This document shows positions 54,087 to 62,613 of a stretch of 64,000 nucleotides of DNA, piece after piece. Position numbers and translations under genes: made by a program. Numbering within the stretch: the first letter of the stretch is position 1; every line of letters begins with the position of its first letter. The notes under the pieces were generated by a model. It saw only the letters and a program-made list of their open reading frames with translations. It was not told where the DNA came from and did no database searches. Source of the stretch: an uncultured Clostridiaceae bacterium (lineage in GTDB: Bacteria; Bacillota; Clostridia; TANB77; CAG-508); contig CAOJCG010000009.1 in assembly GCA_948356915.1 (NCBI GenBank), positions 1 through 64,000 of the forward strand, read 5' to 3'.

Positions 54087-55001
54087 ATGGAAAATAGTAA
54101 ATTTGTTTTTTTAATATTGCATTATAAAGTAGTAGAAGAAACTATTGAGTGTATTGAATCAATATTAAAATTTTGTGATACATCTAATTTTGAGATAGTA
54201 GTAGTTGATAATTTTTCAAATAATAAAACATCAGAAATTCTAAAAGAAAAATATAATAACTATTCAAATATTCATATAATAATTTCTAAAGAAAATTTAG
54301 GCTTTGCAAATGGAAATAATATGGGATATAAATATATAAAAGAAAATTTAAAAGCAGATTTTATAATAATATTAAATAATGATACAAGCTTGATAACAAC
54401 AGATTTTTGCAATGTAATTTATAATGAATATATTGAAAGTGATTTTGCTGTAATGGGACCAAGAATAATATTAGCTTGTAATAAAATTAATGAATATGCT
54501 TATGAATTACCAACAATAAAACAAACAAAGAAAATTGTAGCTAAATATAAAAGAATGTACTATTTTAACAAAATACACTTTACAAGAGTATATGCACTTT
54601 GTGAAAAAATATATAATATTTTTAATAACAAAATATTACATAGGAACAGAAGAAAAATTGATAAATCAAAAAGAAAAGAAGATGTATTAGTACAAGGGTG
54701 TTGTATAGTACTTTCAAAAAAATATATAGATAAATTTGATACAGCTTTCGATGACAGAACATTTTTATATAATGAAGAAGAATTATTATATATAAGATTA
54801 AAAAAGAATAATTTACTTTCTGTTTTTAATCCATATTTAATGATATTTCATAATGAGTCTGTAGCTATAAAAAAGACTAGTAAAGGTATGAGAGAAAAGA
54901 ATATGCTTGTAGCAAAAAATAGAATAAAGTCAGGGAAGATATTACTATTAGAATTACAAAATATAGGACAAAATGAATTATTAGAAAGGATACAAATTTA
55001 G
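54087..55001 (+). CDS. GT2 glycosyltransferase (rhamnosyltransferase-like)
   Basis: 304 residues, GT-A fold. FVFLILHYKVVEETIECIES at the start, EIVVVDNFSNNKTSE near residue 35, SKENLGFANGNNMG near 70, ILNNDTSL near 94 (the metal-binding DxD-like site is NND) and VQGCCIVLSKKYID near 205. This subtype often adds rhamnose or galactofuranose; glf downstream makes Galf transfer attractive but unproven. Ends at the GTG of the next gene. Confidence 0.8.
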   Translation: MENSKFVFLILHYKVVEETIECIESILKFCDTSNFEIVVVDNFSNNKTSEILKEKYNNYSNIHIIISKENLGFANGNNMGYKYIKENLKADFIIILNNDTSLITTDFCNVIYNEYIESDFAVMGPRIILACNKINEYAYELPTIKQTKKIVAKYKRMYYFNKIHFTRVYALCEKIYNIFNNKILHRNRRKIDKSKRKEDVLVQGCCIVLSKKYIDKFDTAFDDRTFLYNEEELLYIRLKKNNLLSVFNPYLMIFHNESVAIKKTSKGMREKNMLVAKNRIKSGKILLLELQNIGQNELLERIQI

Positions 55002-55603
55002 TGTTTGGAATTAGAAAAAAAATAGAAAGAATTAGATATAGAAAAAGGAATAAGCATAATTTTACTACGATAAAAGAGTGCATAGGAGACTTATCAACAA
55101 TTAATGTAGGGAATGGAACATATGGAACAATTAATATAAAAAGGTTTGCTGGCGAAAATTCAAAATTATATATAGGTAATTATTGTTCTATAGCAAATGA
55201 AACTCTTTTTGTTTTAGGAGGAGAGCACGTATATGATAGGATTTCTACATATCCTTTTAAAGATAAATATTTGAATGAAGGGGAATCTAAAACAAAAGGA
55301 GATATTATAATAGAAGATGATGTTTGGATAGGATATGGTAGTACAATACTATCTGGGGTACGAATTGGGCAAGGTTCAATAGTAGGAGCACGATCTGTGG
55401 TAGCAAAAGATATACCACCATATGCAATTTATGCAGGAAATAAAATTATAAAATATAGATTTAGCGAACAAATTATAAAAAGATTATTAAAAGTTGATTT
55501 TGGAAAGCTAAGCAAAGAAAAAATAATAAATAATATGGAATATTTATATAAAAAAATTGATAATGAAGATATTGATGAAATAATAAATAAAGTAAATGGG
55601 TAG
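55001..55603 (+). CDS. Hexapeptide-repeat O-acetyltransferase
   Basis: 200 residues with left-handed beta-helix repeats: IYIGNYCSIANETLFVLGGE-like start near residue 57, GDIIIEDDVWIGYGSTILSG near 99, then VRIGQGSIVGARSVVAKDIP. The H in GGEH is the likely catalytic base (xenobiotic acyltransferase type). It would acetylate a sugar of the repeat unit. Start GTG 55001, overlapping the stop of the previous gene by one base. Confidence 0.82.
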   Translation: MFGIRKKIERIRYRKRNKHNFTTIKECIGDLSTINVGNGTYGTINIKRFAGENSKLYIGNYCSIANETLFVLGGEHVYDRISTYPFKDKYLNEGESKTKGDIIIEDDVWIGYGSTILSGVRIGQGSIVGARSVVAKDIPPYAIYAGNKIIKYRFSEQIIKRLLKVDFGKLSKEKIINNMEYLYKKIDNEDIDEIINKVNG

Positions 55604-55614
55604 GAGAATAAGAT

Positions 55615-56871
55615 ATGAAAATAGTTCATTTATGTACAGGTTATCCAATAACATTTAATGGAGGAATAACAAACTATGTTAGAGCATTAGCAAGTATGCA
55701 AGTAAAAAATGGATATGATGTAACAGTTATTGGTGGAAAAGAAAAAGAAACAAAAAATTTACCATTTAAATATATTGAATATAACGATTTTTTTTTAAGG
55801 CCGTTCTCATTAAAAGAAAAAAAGGAAATATTTGCATATAAAAAAATAGAAAAAATAATTAGTACTTTAAAGCCAGATTTATTACATATACATATGATGT
55901 TAGACATTGATGAGAGAATATATAAGATATTAGAAAAATATAATATAAAGTACATTGTAAGTTTACATGATTACAGCTTTTTATGTCCTAGAATTCAGAT
56001 GTTTACAAATGAAAGACCTTGTGAATGTGTTAGTGAAAAATGTACAAAATGTGCATATTATATTGAACAAAGATTTTGGCTAAAAAAAATATGTGATAAG
56101 TTAAAAATAAATAAGGAAATAGGTAGAAAAAGAAGTCCACAATTTTTAAAAATGTATGAAGAAAATAAAAAAACATTAGAAAATGCAGAGCTACTGTTGC
56201 CAGTATCAAAGAAAGTTCAAGAAATATATGAAAAATCTAATATAAAAAATAAATACAAAATTCTTCATATAGGAAATATAACAGCGGATAGTTTTGTTGA
56301 ATATTCGAATAAAGAAATAGAAGATAAGACAAAAATTAAAATTGTTATGTTGGGAAGTTTTAAAAAGGTAAAAGGTGGAGAAGAATTTATAAAAATTGCT
56401 AACTCTTTAAATGAAACCTTTGAATTTTACTTTTTAGGAAGGGCAAATGAAAATGAAAAAATAATTATGAGAGAAAATGGTATTATCGATTGTGGAGAAT
56501 ATAAACAAGAAGAATTGCCAAAAAAATTAAAAAAATATGATTTTGGCTGTGTTTTATCAATATGGGAAGATAATGCACCTCAAGTAGTAATGGAACTGTT
56601 GAATAATAATATTCCAGTAATAGGTACATTAATGGGAGGAATACCAGATTTTATAGAGGATAACCAAAATGGCTTTTTATATAATCCATATTCTCAAGAA
56701 TCTTTTGAAAACTTAATACAAAGACTAAATAAACTAAATATCGAAGAATGTGAAAGAATGAAACATAATATAAAGAGAACGTTGACACCAGAAGAACACT
56801 TTAAAGAGTTAGAAGCTGAATATATAAAAATATTAAAGGATATAGAAAAAAATGAAAAAATCAATAACTAA
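55615..56871 (+). CDS. GT4 glycosyltransferase with cysteine-rich insert
   Basis: 418 residues. IVHLCTGYPITFNGGITNYV at the N-terminus; LHIHMMLD near 84; a cysteine cluster (CPRIQMFTNERPCECVSEKC, then CAYY, near residues 124-148) that may bind a metal, as in several GT4 enzymes; and SIWEDNAPQVVMELLNNNIP near 321 as donor site. Sugar unknown. Overlaps the flippase gene by 20 bases. Confidence 0.8.
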   Translation: MKIVHLCTGYPITFNGGITNYVRALASMQVKNGYDVTVIGGKEKETKNLPFKYIEYNDFFLRPFSLKEKKEIFAYKKIEKIISTLKPDLLHIHMMLDIDERIYKILEKYNIKYIVSLHDYSFLCPRIQMFTNERPCECVSEKCTKCAYYIEQRFWLKKICDKLKINKEIGRKRSPQFLKMYEENKKTLENAELLLPVSKKVQEIYEKSNIKNKYKILHIGNITADSFVEYSNKEIEDKTKIKIVMLGSFKKVKGGEEFIKIANSLNETFEFYFLGRANENEKIIMRENGIIDCGEYKQEELPKKLKKYDFGCVLSIWEDNAPQVVMELLNNNIPVIGTLMGGIPDFIEDNQNGFLYNPYSQESFENLIQRLNKLNIEECERMKHNIKRTLTPEEHFKELEAEYIKILKDIEKNEKINN

Positions 56872-58282
56872 AAATTATATATATAACTTAATATATCAAA
56901 TATTAATACTTATATTACCACTAATAACGACACCATATATATCAAGAGTACTAGGAGCAGAAAATATTGGAATATATAGTTATACAATTTCTATAGTAAC
57001 ATATTTTATATTATTTGGTTCATTAGGAATAGCGATGTATGGGCAAAGAGAAATTGCATATTTACAAGATAATAAACAAAAATACAGTAAAACATTTTGG
57101 GAGATTTTTATATTAAGATTTATAACAATGTTTATATCTATGTTAATATTTTATTTTACATTTGCTAAAAATGGTGATTATGCTATTTATTATAAAATAT
57201 TATTGATAGAAATAATAGCTAATTGCTTAGATATTAGTTGGTTCTTTCAAGGATTAGAAGAATTTAAAAAAATTGTAATAAGAAATACAATAATAAAAAT
57301 AGTAAGTATTATATGTATATTTATTTTTGTTAAAAATAGCGATCATTTAATTATATATTTTTTTATATATGTATTATCTATACTACTAGGAAATATAACT
57401 TTATGGCCATATTTACTAAAATTTTTAACACCAATAAAAGTAAAAGAACTAAACATAGGACAACATTTGAAACCTACAATAGCACTATTTATACCACAAA
57501 TAGCAATACAAATATATACTGTTCTAGATAAAGTAATGATAGGAGCAATTATAACTGATAAATCGGAAGTAGGATATTATGAACAAAGTCAAAAAATAAT
57601 AAAAATGTTACTTACAGTTGTAACATCATTAGGAACTGTAATGGTACCTAGAATAGCAAATACATTTATAAATGGAGACACAAAAAAAATACAAGAATAT
57701 ATGAAAAGGGCTTTCAATTTTGTATTTCTTATAGCTTTTCCTATGATGTTTGGAGTACTAGCAATATCTAATAATTTTGTGCCTATATTTTTTGGACAAG
57801 GATATGAAAAAGTAGCAATATTAATGAGCGTTATTAGTCCAATTTTACTAATAATAGGACTAAGTAATGTAATAGGAACTCAATACTTGTTACCAACTAA
57901 GAAACAAAAAGAATTTACTATTTCAGTTGCAATAGGAGCATTAGTAAATTTTACAATAAATATGTTATTAATAAAGAAATATGGGGCATTAGGAGCTTCA
58001 ATAGGAACTGTAGTAGCAGAAATATGTGTTACAATGATGCAATTTATTTTTATAAGAAAAAGATTTAATATATTGGAAATATTAAAGATATCAATTAAAT
58101 ATCTAATAGCAGCAGTAATAATGTTTATAGGATGTATAATTATAGGAAATATTATAAAAAATAGTTTATATGCCATAATTGCACAAGTTGTAGTAGGAAT
58201 AGGAGTATATGGTATTATATTATTAATACTAAAAGATCAATTTGTATATGCAATATTGAAGAAAGTAAAAATTATAAAATAG
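56852..58282 (+). CDS. Oligosaccharide flippase (Wzx, MATE-like fold)
   Basis: 476 residues, about 12-14 membrane helices. TTPYISRVLGAENIGIYSYT near residue 25 and the mid-protein GYYEQSQKIIKMLLTVVTSL are typical of polysaccharide-transport (PST) proteins. It would flip the undecaprenyl-linked repeat unit to the outer face before polymerisation by the Wzy-like protein. A Wzx-Wzy type route is thereby complete in this operon. Confidence 0.85.
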   Translation: MKKSITKNYIYNLIYQILILILPLITTPYISRVLGAENIGIYSYTISIVTYFILFGSLGIAMYGQREIAYLQDNKQKYSKTFWEIFILRFITMFISMLIFYFTFAKNGDYAIYYKILLIEIIANCLDISWFFQGLEEFKKIVIRNTIIKIVSIICIFIFVKNSDHLIIYFFIYVLSILLGNITLWPYLLKFLTPIKVKELNIGQHLKPTIALFIPQIAIQIYTVLDKVMIGAIITDKSEVGYYEQSQKIIKMLLTVVTSLGTVMVPRIANTFINGDTKKIQEYMKRAFNFVFLIAFPMMFGVLAISNNFVPIFFGQGYEKVAILMSVISPILLIIGLSNVIGTQYLLPTKKQKEFTISVAIGALVNFTINMLLIKKYGALGASIGTVVAEICVTMMQFIFIRKRFNILEILKISIKYLIAAVIMFIGCIIIGNIIKNSLYAIIAQVVVGIGVYGIILLILKDQFVYAILKKVKIIK

Positions 58283-58290
58283 GAGAAAAT

Positions 58291-59394
58291 ATGAAAAAAT
58301 ATGATTATCTGATAGTAGGCTCAGGCCTATTTGGTTCAATATTTGCCCACGAGGCAAATAAAAGGGGTAAAAAATGCTTAGTAATAGATAAACGCTCACA
58401 CATAGGCGGAAATATCTATACAGAAAACATAGAAGGAATAAACGTACATAAATACGGTGCACATATATTCCATACAAGCAATAAAGAAGTATGGGAATAT
58501 ATCAATAACTTTGCAGAATTTAACCGTTACACAAATTCACCAGTAGCACGTTATAAAAATGAACTATATAACATGCCATTTAACATGAACACATTTAACA
58601 AACTATGGGGAGTAGTAACTCCAAAAGAAGCACAGGCAAAAATAGAAGAAGAGAAAAAAGAAGCGGGAATAATAGAGCCTAAAAACTTAGAAGAACAAGC
58701 AATTAGCTTAGTAGGAAAAACAATATATGAAAAATTAGTAAAAGGCTATACAGAAAAGCAATGGGGGCAAAGAGCAACTGAACTACCAAGCTTCATAATA
58801 AAAAGATTACCAGTTCGTTTTATATACGACAACAACTACTTTAATGATATATACCAAGGTATTCCAATAGGAGGATATACGCAAATAATAGAAAAAATGC
58901 TTGAAGGAATAGAAGTAAAACTAAATTGTGATTTCTTTGAACATAGAGAAGAACTAGAAAATATCGCAGAAAAAATAGTATTCACTGGTCCAATAGATCA
59001 ATATTATAATTACAAATATGGTGAGTTAGAATATAGAAGCCTAAAATTCGAAACAGAAATATTAAATGAACAAAATTACCAAGGAAATGCAGTAGTAAAC
59101 TATACAGAATATGAAGTTCCATATACAAGAATAATAGAACACAAACACTTTGAATTTGATACCACATCACCAAAAACAGTAATAACAAGAGAATATCCAG
59201 ATAAATGGACATTAGGAAAAGAGCCATATTATTCAATAAATAATGATAAAAATAATAGTTTATATGAAAAATATGCAAACCTTGCTAAAAACGATAGAAA
59301 AGTAATATTTGGTGGAAGACTAGGACAATACAAATATTTTGATATGGACAAGGTAATACTAGAGGCATTAAATTGTGTAAAAGAAAATTTATAA
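58291..59394 (+). CDS. glf: UDP-galactopyranose mutase
   Basis: 367 residues. FAD-binding start DYLIVGSGLFGSIFAHEANK, RSHIGGNIYTE near residue 36, HKYGAHIFHTSNKEVWEYI near 52, YTEKQWGQRATELP near 155 and the substrate Arg region FTGPIDQYYNYKYGELEYRS near 231, and GGRLGQYKYFDMDKV near the C-terminus. It interconverts UDP-galactopyranose and UDP-galactofuranose, giving the Galf donor for the polysaccharide. Last gene of the operon. Codon style is slightly less AT-rich than the variable GT genes before it. Confidence 0.95.
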   Translation: MKKYDYLIVGSGLFGSIFAHEANKRGKKCLVIDKRSHIGGNIYTENIEGINVHKYGAHIFHTSNKEVWEYINNFAEFNRYTNSPVARYKNELYNMPFNMNTFNKLWGVVTPKEAQAKIEEEKKEAGIIEPKNLEEQAISLVGKTIYEKLVKGYTEKQWGQRATELPSFIIKRLPVRFIYDNNYFNDIYQGIPIGGYTQIIEKMLEGIEVKLNCDFFEHREELENIAEKIVFTGPIDQYYNYKYGELEYRSLKFETEILNEQNYQGNAVVNYTEYEVPYTRIIEHKHFEFDTTSPKTVITREYPDKWTLGKEPYYSINNDKNNSLYEKYANLAKNDRKVIFGGRLGQYKYFDMDKVILEALNCVKENL

Positions 59395-59442: not shown

Positions 59443-59471
59443 TTGACAATTTACATAAGGTAATATAAAAT
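59443..59471 (+). promoter_or_regulatory. Promoter of TIGR04255-like operon
   Basis: TTGACA (59443-59448), 17 bases, TAAAAT (59466-59471). Confidence 0.7.
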
Positions 59472-59552
59472 ATGAAATATAAATAAAAAGATAAAAGTTA
59501 AGTTTATTATTTCAATAGTAAATCATAATATATATTGTAAGGAGAATTATAT

Positions 59553-60371
59553 ATGAGTAAAGATGAGATAAATAGAGAAGATTTAAATACGAATTTTTTA
59601 AAGCAAACAATTATTAGACTAGACTATGATATGCTATTTGAAAAGGATATTGAAAAATTTATTGAAAAAATATATCAATATTTAATTGGAAAAGAATATA
59701 GAATGAATACTAATACTTTATCGAGTTTTAATGTAAATATAAATATGGATGAAGCTAACAATATTACAAACAATTTTAATACAGATAATGAAAACTATTC
59801 ATCTTTTATAAATAAAGAAGGAAACATTACACTTGATATTACGAAACAATTTATAGCTATGAATATATATTATAATAAATTTGAAAAGTTTGAGCAAATA
59901 TTAGAAATTTTTAATGAAGTAATAAAATATTTGAGAGACATAAGAATAGGTTTTTCATTTAATAGAATTGGTATCAGGAAAATTAATGCATTTGGAATAG
60001 AACATATATCAAAAATTAATAATTATATAGAAGAGACAACATTCAACTTTTCCTATAAAGATAGTAAAGAAAATAGTTCTAATTTAATTATAAAAAACTC
60101 AACTGAGGTTTTTACAATCGATGTATATAAGGTAAACAAAAATGTAAATGTAGCAAATGGAATTATGATTGATCAAAACAAAAAAGAAAATAGCATTTAT
60201 CAAGTAGTATTAGATATAGACATTTATAATGATGAAATAGAAAAGAATAACATTGATTTAATAAAAATGAATAATACATTGTTTAAAATATATAAAGATT
60301 CAATTAAAGAAGACTTTTTGATTAAAATGAAAAAAACAGATTATACAGATAAGGAGATAAGAAAAATATGA
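59553..60371 (+). CDS. TIGR04255-like protein
   Basis: 272 residues, no signal peptide or membrane segment. It begins with a strand-rich half (LKQTIIRLDYDMLFEKDIEK), and the middle FSFNRIGIRKINAFG resembles the central RIGLRYIN motif of TIGR04255 proteins, sporadic bacterial proteins of unknown function that appear in accessory and defence-type islands. The match is by pattern only. It heads a three-gene unit: the next gene starts in the overlap ATGA at 60368. Ribosome binding site AAGGAG before ATG 59553. Confidence 0.55.
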   Translation: MSKDEINREDLNTNFLKQTIIRLDYDMLFEKDIEKFIEKIYQYLIGKEYRMNTNTLSSFNVNINMDEANNITNNFNTDNENYSSFINKEGNITLDITKQFIAMNIYYNKFEKFEQILEIFNEVIKYLRDIRIGFSFNRIGIRKINAFGIEHISKINNYIEETTFNFSYKDSKENSSNLIIKNSTEVFTIDVYKVNKNVNVANGIMIDQNKKENSIYQVVLDIDIYNDEIEKNNIDLIKMNNTLFKIYKDSIKEDFLIKMKKTDYTDKEIRKI

Positions 60372-60544
60372 TTAATTATAATTTTAAACCCTTAGTAACT
60401 TCAATATCAGTATCAAGAACTGCAAGAAAAATAAACGAGAAATCTGCTAAAATAATATCAAAAACAGCTTCAGATGTAGAATATGGAAAGGTGATATCAT
60501 ATAAAGATAGAAGAAAATATGGAGACTATAGAAGGATTAAATAA
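60368..60544 (+). CDS. Small basic protein, 58 residues
   Basis: The peptide begins MINYNFKPLVTSISVSRTAR and is rich in Lys, Arg and Ser. It overlaps the stop of the gene before by 4 bases (ATGA) and the start of the gene after by 26 bases, so all three are translated together. No family recognised; a DNA- or RNA-binding adaptor is possible but unproven. Confidence 0.6.
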   Translation: MINYNFKPLVTSISVSRTARKINEKSAKIISKTASDVEYGKVISYKDRRKYGDYRRIK

Positions 60545-61544
60545 ATATATAGTAAGAGATAAATTGATACTAAAAATTTTTACAATAGGATATGAACCGA
60601 TGGGCGAAAGTATAATTATTTTAATTATTGTAGATGGCGTTGTAAAATTTTCAGCTGTAATAGATTGCTTTAAAACAACAGAGATAAATAAAACTTTAGA
60701 TATCTTACAAGAATATAATGTAGAAAAAGTAAATTTTATATGTATAACTCACCCAGATGTAGATCATTGCAAAGGATTTGAAAAAATATTGGAAAAAGCC
60801 AATAATAAAACAGTAATATTATATCCAGTATATATGATAAATGACCTTAATTATGATAAAGATGCAAAAATAGTTATAGATAAATTATCAGAATTTGTAA
60901 TGAAAAGAAAGAATGACCCAGATAAGCCTATTTTGAAGTCATGTGTAGGTAGCTGTTTGGCTCCAATTAATTTTATATTTGAAAATGAAAAGAATGGATA
61001 TAAATATCCTTTAATAATTAATACATATTCTCCAGTATCAGAAATTATTGAAAGACCAAATGCTTATAACTATTTGATAGAAGAATTTAAACGAACAAAT
61101 TCACACAATAATTTTTCCATTATGTTATCATTAACATTAGGAGATTTTAAAAGTTTGTTTTGCGGAGATATTCAAAATGATAGTATAGATATTGTAAAGA
61201 GAGATTTAAATATGAATGATATGGATTTTTTTATTAATACCATCGATTTTTTTAAAATACCACATCATTGTTCTTGGGGCTCGAAAAATATGTTGAATCT
61301 TTTAAGTAATTGTTTTATTGCTAATTCAGTTACAACTATATATAACAGAGGAAAGAGTAAATTACCAAATAAAGAAATGCTTAAAAAATATATAAAAAAA
61401 TCAGAAAAGACTTATTGTACAAGCAATATAGAAAATGAAAAAGAAAATATATACAAATATGGAATTGTGGAACTTACAGCAAATATATTTGAACGTACTA
61501 TTAGAATAGAAGATAAAAAATATGATGAAGTAGAAGTAATGTGA
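60519..61544 (+). CDS. ComEC-type metallo-beta-lactamase-fold hydrolase
   Basis: 341 residues. ITHPDVDHCKGF near residue 77 is the HxDxDH metal motif of the ComEC/Rec2 subtype; LFCGDI near 207 (the GD ligand) and FKIPHHCSWGS near 243 (PHH) are the remaining metal-site motifs. It lacks ComEC's membrane region, so it is a free hydrolase, perhaps a nuclease or phosphodiesterase. Linked to the TIGR04255-like and small genes by overlap. A defence role is an inference from the accessory setting next to a mobile element. Confidence 0.7.
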   Translation: METIEGLNKYIVRDKLILKIFTIGYEPMGESIIILIIVDGVVKFSAVIDCFKTTEINKTLDILQEYNVEKVNFICITHPDVDHCKGFEKILEKANNKTVILYPVYMINDLNYDKDAKIVIDKLSEFVMKRKNDPDKPILKSCVGSCLAPINFIFENEKNGYKYPLIINTYSPVSEIIERPNAYNYLIEEFKRTNSHNNFSIMLSLTLGDFKSLFCGDIQNDSIDIVKRDLNMNDMDFFINTIDFFKIPHHCSWGSKNMLNLLSNCFIANSVTTIYNRGKSKLPNKEMLKKYIKKSEKTYCTSNIENEKENIYKYGIVELTANIFERTIRIEDKKYDEVEVM

Positions 61545-61779: not shown

Positions 61780-62366
61780 CTATTTATTTTTTCCATCATC
61801 TAACTTCCTACAACTTTGCTCAGTATCTGCACTAATACATTTCTCAGGATTCTTAAAAGACAAATACCAACTCATTCCATTCCTATTTTTAGCAATCTCG
61901 TCATTTCTTTTTTGAAGCCCAGCAAAGGTAGTAGGAGGCGAAACAATAATTGGTTCACAAGGTACCCAATTAGCAGGAGTAGAACCACATGCCTCATCAG
62001 AAGTTTGAAGTGCCTCAATACATCTTAAAATTTCAGGAATACATCTACCTATATTTAGTGGGTAAACCAATATAAGTCTTACAATTCCCTTATCATCAAT
62101 AATAAACACATTTCTTACAGTTTCAGTAGTGCTAACATCATTAGATATCATTCCATATTTTCTAGCAATAGCCCCATTTCTATCAGCAATTATAGGAAAA
62201 GGTACAACAATACCAGTTTTACAATAAATATCATAAACCCAAGCCAAATGAGAAGGGTTACTATCTACACTAAGACCTATTAAGCAAGTATTAAGTCTTT
62301 CAAAATATGTATTTGCTTTAGAAAAAGCTATCATTTCAGTTGTGCATACTGGGGTTACTCTATCTA
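61780..62366 (-). pseudogene. 5'-truncated peroxiredoxin (Prx6/1-Cys type)
   Basis: From VTPVCTTEMIAFSK (peroxidatic Cys within the PVCT motif, near 62350) to the end, the sequence is a good peroxiredoxin of the AhpC-TSA/1-Cys class: LIGLSVDSNPSHLAWVYDIY, RNVFIIDDKGIVRLILVYPL, then the C-terminal arm. The usual first ~40 residues before the Cys, including the SHPADFT run-up, are absent; the frame upstream (to 62460) encodes unrelated sequence made of an inverted copy of the break-point. So the 5' end appears to have been cut off by the neighbouring mobile element. A truncated protein might still be made but would lack the first strands. Confidence 0.7.
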
Positions 62367-62415
62367 TGGTTTTCAGAAAAAGTTTGAAAAGTAGAGATAG
62401 AGTAACCCCAGTATG
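62346..62415. repeat. 20-bp inverted repeat at the peroxiredoxin break-point
   Basis: CATACTGGGGTTACTCTATC (62346-62365) and GATAGAGTAACCCCAGTATG (62396-62415) are perfect complements around 30 bases. The left copy is peroxiredoxin coding sequence; the right copy lies in the foreign side, suggesting a recombination or attachment junction. Confidence 0.6.
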
Positions 62416-62613
62416 TTGAATTTTCAAACTCTCGAAAGTATTGATATAACTGACACACAAAAAAACAATAAACTAAAATATTTGAGAAAAACAGTGAAAA
62501 ATTGATTAAAGTTGAAAATAGAAAATTCTTAAAAAAGGGTAATAAAAAATCAATGAAATGTGCTAAATATAAACAAAAAATGTGGTATGGATATATAGAT
62601 AAAAAACTGTACC

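Follow-up and report, generated by a model that had tools for sequence, protein, structure and literature searches.

Three genes form a tightly coupled operon in the window, i.e. the whole stretch of DNA that was analysed (64,000 nucleotides). They code for a protein of the TIGR04255 family, a small basic protein and a free metallo-beta-lactamase (MBL) of the ComEC type. The features of the operon are as follows.

59443..59471, plus strand: candidate sigma-70 promoter TTGACA-17-TAAAAT, 11 of 12 consensus matches, positioned ahead of the operon
59539..59544, plus strand: RBS AAGGAG of gene 1, by sequence reading
59553..60371, plus strand: gene 1, TIGR04255 family protein of 272 residues (NCBIfam profile; 27 loci), proposed sensor or regulatory subunit
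60351..60356, plus strand: RBS AAGGAG of gene 2, within gene 1, by sequence reading
60368..60544, plus strand: gene 2, basic protein of 58 residues, pI 10.2 (conserved open reading frame), proposed tether or inhibitor
60519..61544, plus strand: gene 3, free ComEC-type MBL of 341 residues (Pfam; sequence and fold match to 9ic4), proposed nuclease effector
60747..60770, plus strand: first metal motif of the MBL, THPDVDHC (H78, D80, D82, H83), from sequence and alignment
60831..61106, plus strand: stretch of extra residues relative to ComEC, about residues 105-196 of the MBL, candidate gating loops, from the alignment with ComEC-like proteins
61167..61169, plus strand: metal ligand D217 of the motif CGD, invariant in operon MBLs
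61263..61268, plus strand: metal motif HH (H249, H250) within KIPHH, invariant in operon MBLs

Properties and surroundings of the three genes

The open reading frames were re-read as 59553-60371, 60368-60544 and 60519-61544. They overlap by 4 bases, in an ATGA at 60368, and by 26 bases (60519-60544), which is the coupling that a sequence-only reading of this DNA had claimed. The gene identities proposed in that reading are also upheld by the profile, conservation and fold matches given below. A single promoter had been assumed for the whole operon. The candidate at 59443 is well placed, but promoter-like matches around the operon show no excess over shuffles of this AT-rich stretch, so that only its position argues for it. 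The location between polysaccharide genes and a mobile element proved correct: a UDP-galactopyranose mutase gene is found 5' of the operon, while on the 3' side a peroxiredoxin gene is followed by genes for a T4SS pilin and for PrgI, which mark a conjugative element. Polysaccharide clusters adjoin the trio in each of its three same-genus copies (window 54087-59394; L049 211-6028; L050 1-6515) and are perhaps an insertion hotspot. The peroxiredoxin gene itself (window 61780-62460, minus strand) is missing its first ~35 codons. At the break of this gene lies an inverted repeat (62345-62375 / 62385-62415, with arms of 31 nt that are 90% complementary) that duplicates part of its active-site coding sequence; the truncation and the repeat reflect either a true rearrangement or an assembly artefact.

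Gene 1 reached 55.3 bits against the NCBIfam profile TIGR04255 (cut-off 30) over residues 11-257, close to the whole profile, and is thus a member of the family. No relative of TIGR04255 was found by sequence in the PDB. The AlphaFold2 model of gene 1 has a pLDDT of 72.7, and fold matches of the TIGR04255 model are weak (best E 2.5e-3). TATA-binding proteins recur among them at low TM-score, and a TBP-like fold of the predicted structure is a lead only. The 23 rows of the family alignment differ too much to yield a pattern for searching.

Gene 2 had no family match in the profile libraries searched. Two same-genus genomes nevertheless retain its reading frame, with 45-46% identity and the same kind of junctions, and same-genus comparison with the window gave dN 0.44 and dS 1.25, figures that include ~26 bases shared with the MBL frame. 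A chance open reading frame was rejected on these grounds. Each of the five MBL-type loci has a strongly basic small protein (pI 9.7-10.4) in this position.

The product of gene 3 belongs to the metallo-beta-lactamase superfamily, with 26.9 bits against Pfam Lactamase_B (cut-off 22.7). Among solved structures, the MBL domain of ComEC (PDB 9ic4) is the closest to it both in sequence and in predicted fold, and the second fold match is the phosphorylcholine esterase CbpE/Pce (E 1.7e-8). The ComEC-type metal ligands are all present in the window MBL (H78, D80, D82, H83, D217 and H250). Across four operon MBLs, H78, D82 and H83 are invariant and position 80 is either D or H. The metal motifs are separated by 150-171 residues in operon MBLs versus 116-136 in most of the ComEC-like proteins collected, a range that three collected non-operon sequences likewise exceed. 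Residues 174-198 of the MBL model fall below pLDDT 50. The nearest profile models are mostly antiphage (RTasMBL, LmuA, PDC-M48B, 6A-MBL, Avs1a), all of them far below membership. Three candidate assignments were rejected by score: ComEC/Rec2 (18.7 bits, equivalog cut-off 190), the window protein being a free enzyme of 341 residues and not a channel protein; Avs1a of AVAST type 1 (26.1 bits, equivalog cut-off 420); and 6A-MBL (NF058524; 44.6 bits, equivalog cut-off 220).

Conservation, third-gene exchange and mobility

The complete trio of TIGR04255, small basic protein and MBL recurs in five loci, in which TIGR04255 identity is as low as about 30%. Two rabbit-gut MAGs of the same genus carry it with identities of 52-53%, 45-46% and 61% for genes 1 to 3 and with overlapping junctions alike. 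TIGR04255 is absent from the other 24 same-genus genomes sampled, and the trio is therefore sporadic. In a second genus (G559), a diverged trio directly adjoins type I restriction genes, and on a contig of a viral collection (L062), reached through TIGR04255, the trio adjoins a Hypoth_Ymh gene. The trios of G002 and G022 were recovered independently with each gene. An MBL profile built from these trios and run over the 287 genomes of the order gave more than 470 bits for the window, G022 and G559 and at most 56 bits for all others, a gap that is not by itself proof of exclusive pairing since G559 and L062 were reached via TIGR04255 and included in the profile. Relatives of the window MBL were found neither in annotated phages or plasmids nor in the viral contigs searched with its alignments, and a tblastn search of plasmids with the L062 MBL returned weak ComEC/MBL matches only.

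Beyond the trio, TIGR04255 belongs to a wider system in which the third gene can be exchanged and the MBL is one of its forms, a point that the sequence-only reading had missed. Few genomes carry TIGR04255 (5 of 398 in a sample of the phylum, 8 of 287 in the order), and it is also found in phage records, in viral contigs and on plasmids. It heads a tight three-gene operon in 26 of the 27 loci examined, from four phyla and from chromosomes, plasmids and phages; the exception (H15/L094) is a lone TIGR04255 gene. In the 21 tabulated loci, adjacent triad genes overlap or lie at most 11 nt apart. The second gene is small in several Bacillota and longer, often with a helix-turn-helix, in other phyla. 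The third gene falls into the following classes.

MBL: 5 loci
Unnamed family marked by the conserved motifs QG and Q.CD: 15 loci, 12 of them aligned
Short protein: common to 2 loci
HEPN-like protein: 1 locus, by a weak match below the cut-off
Protein with hydrophobic helices (membrane class): 1 locus, whose gene 2 has such helices too
MAG6450-like protein, with a SocA-like second gene: 1 locus (L047 1244-3174)
Unclassified: 1 locus

The QG/Q.CD family spans four phyla (L041 9098-9628, L044 8506-9159, L053 7405-8241, L060 6371-7213 and 11 further loci) and has no significant match in Pfam, NCBIfam or PADLOC. No clear RxxxxH motif was seen in the HEPN-like third protein. In the TIGR04255 tree, grouping follows the class of gene 3. 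Within it, the SocA/MAG6450-type row (L047) is nested in the MBL clade (inner fork support 99/99) and the HEPN-like row has a QG/Q.CD-type row as its sister (support 100/98), and these two placements imply that gene 3 was exchanged and gene 1 stayed.

The mobility of these triads is apparent from their neighbours. A phage integrase, a resolvase or an HsdM-type methylase lies within 6 kb of TIGR04255 in 7 of 13 genomes against 0.90 expected at a random point (P 6e-6, for context families picked after the neighbours were known). Enrichment in defence islands had been proposed as a check of the sequence-only reading. The enrichment seen is that of this combined set of mobile genes and HsdM; restriction systems occur near TIGR04255 in only 2 of the 13 genomes, namely the type I R-M genes by G559 and G171. 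Because the families were chosen post hoc and only two of the seven contexts are restriction systems, the context points well to mobility and faintly to defence. A block of 3,245 bp is identical in a viral contig (L063 4618-7862) and a genome (L044 7239-10483). In the genome it starts inside a tRNA-Leu gene (3' part) and extends across the triad into the integrase; in the viral contig it is preceded by phage genes. A triad between attP and integrase is the expected picture of temperate phage cargo, and the identity of the block in both records indicates that this phage is probably active. At the DNA level, the Klebsiella triad was not found in E. coli. One rhizobial TIGR04255 triad is immediately preceded, on its upstream side, by a set of multiubiquitin, ThiF and DUF6527 genes (L052 2192-4489).

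The earlier expectation that the three genes co-occur is confirmed by these loci, as is the one that their homologues also occur outside housekeeping contexts. The family is named by a number only and has so far been assigned no role. A literature search, whose reach excluded the DefenseFinder models and most subscription papers, found no paper with 'TIGR04255', and NCBIfam (June 2026) and PADLOC (2023) assign it no role in defence. Within these sources no description of the exact gene set was encountered, in agreement with what the sequence-only reading had stated.

Proposed function and its alternatives

Abortive-infection and toxin systems typically pair one constant partner with exchangeable third genes. 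The module probably represents an anti-virus or toxin-type system not described before. At about even confidence, we take the locus to be a mobile conflict module of three genes in one of its effector variants, most likely acting in abortive-type defence against phages (or against mobile elements). In such a module, sensing or regulation would fall to TIGR04255 as the constant subunit. The small basic protein, produced by overlapping translation, would tether TIGR04255 to the third protein or help to keep the latter inactive. We infer that the MBL would act as a ComEC-type DNase and be kept in check within the complex, possibly by the MBL's own extra loops. Upon infection, the complex of TIGR04255 and small protein would change state, and the MBL would be released and degrade DNA. 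Release by such a change is proposed because the operon encodes no protease. The defence role advanced from the sequence had likewise coupled an effector to a sensor-like protein; it fits the two type I R-M neighbours, the carriage by phages and plasmids, the exchange of effectors and the likeness to antiphage MBLs, but sits less easily with the scarcity of restriction systems among the neighbours.

A broader reading is tentative and somewhat doubtful: TIGR04255 might define an unrecognised and widespread class of modular immune systems with a constant sensor, a short adaptor and interchangeable effectors (MBL DNase, HEPN-like, membrane, QG/Q.CD), in which the MBL would be restrained and released without proteolysis. 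If TIGR04255 is the constant part of a conflict system that exchanges its effectors, a testable role would fall to many triads now called 'hypothetical' on chromosomes, phages and plasmids, QG/Q.CD would be added as a new effector family, and the MBL version would illustrate how a ComEC-type nuclease is restrained without a protease.

The border between abortive defence and a toxin-antitoxin or addiction module is thin. In the latter case, the third protein would be a toxin that TIGR04255, the second protein or both neutralise, the helix-turn-helix second protein would autoregulate in many triads, and the operon would mainly maintain its mobile element. Overlapping genes, helix-turn-helix second genes and the many plasmid-borne copies would suit such a module, as would the triad of the MBL clade that combines a SocA-like second protein, from an antitoxin family, with a MAG6450-like third. 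However, three genes are constant though two would suffice, the antitoxin-like protein occurs in only one locus and for the copies on chromosomes no element that they would serve to maintain is obvious, all of which make addiction an unlikely main role.

The strong link to integrases, phages and plasmids, with copies that adjoin attP, would also be expected of a phage- or plasmid-encoded module directed against rival elements, or acting on the transfer or recombination of its own carrier, and not in host defence. Such competition or regulation between elements is quite improbable, as exchange of gene 3 among unrelated families is hard to explain by regulation and several triad copies lie outside recognisable elements (e.g. 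G002). The match to CbpE/Pce and the polysaccharide genes beside all three same-genus copies bring to mind an envelope or metabolic role, in which the MBL would hydrolyse envelope glycans or phosphoesters in connection with these genes. This role we regard as very improbable. Polysaccharide clusters are ordinary insertion hotspots, the trios of G559 and L062 do not stand beside polysaccharide genes, no signal peptide is apparent in the MBL sequence, and ComEC is a better match of the MBL than CbpE/Pce in sequence and fold.

Comparison with known systems

The conflict module proposed here has its closest counterparts in the gated MBL pro-nucleases. HamM, Avs1a and CanC are ComEC-like pro-nucleases that insertions hold off and that a protease switches on (PMC12799240). 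Like the MBLs of Hachiman (HamM), AVAST (Avs1a), Lamassu, DRT and Canu (CanC), the window MBL is a ComEC-like enzyme in a defence-type operon and has extra residues round the active site compared with ComEC, which recall the gating insertions of these enzymes and may lie at equivalent positions; the operon has three genes, as does Canu (PMC12799240). In contrast to these systems, its partner is TIGR04255 and it lacks a trypsin- or caspase-like partner, HamB, STAND, SMC or reverse transcriptase. Genes 1 and 2 had no protease family match in the profile libraries, so that a co-encoded protease is not recognised.

The best NCBIfam match of the window MBL is the 6A-MBL anti-phage system (NF058524); no paper on 6A-MBL was found in the literature search. 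With the MBL domain of ComEC/Rec2 (9ic4), the window MBL shares the metal motifs. Unlike ComEC/Rec2, it is free of the channel and OB parts, and its metal motifs lie about 35-45 residues further apart than in most ComEC-like relatives. The Panacea/SocA (DUF4065) toxin-antitoxin network (PMC8832971) likewise joins a constant family to many exchangeable partners, and one TIGR04255 triad includes a SocA-like protein, but the constant family is here TIGR04255, which heads a three-gene operon and is not a known antitoxin. Overall, TIGR04255 as a constant subunit and the present gene set are, as far as checked, undescribed, within a kind of system that is already known, i.e. the modular conflict operon with swappable effectors and an MBL nuclease effector.
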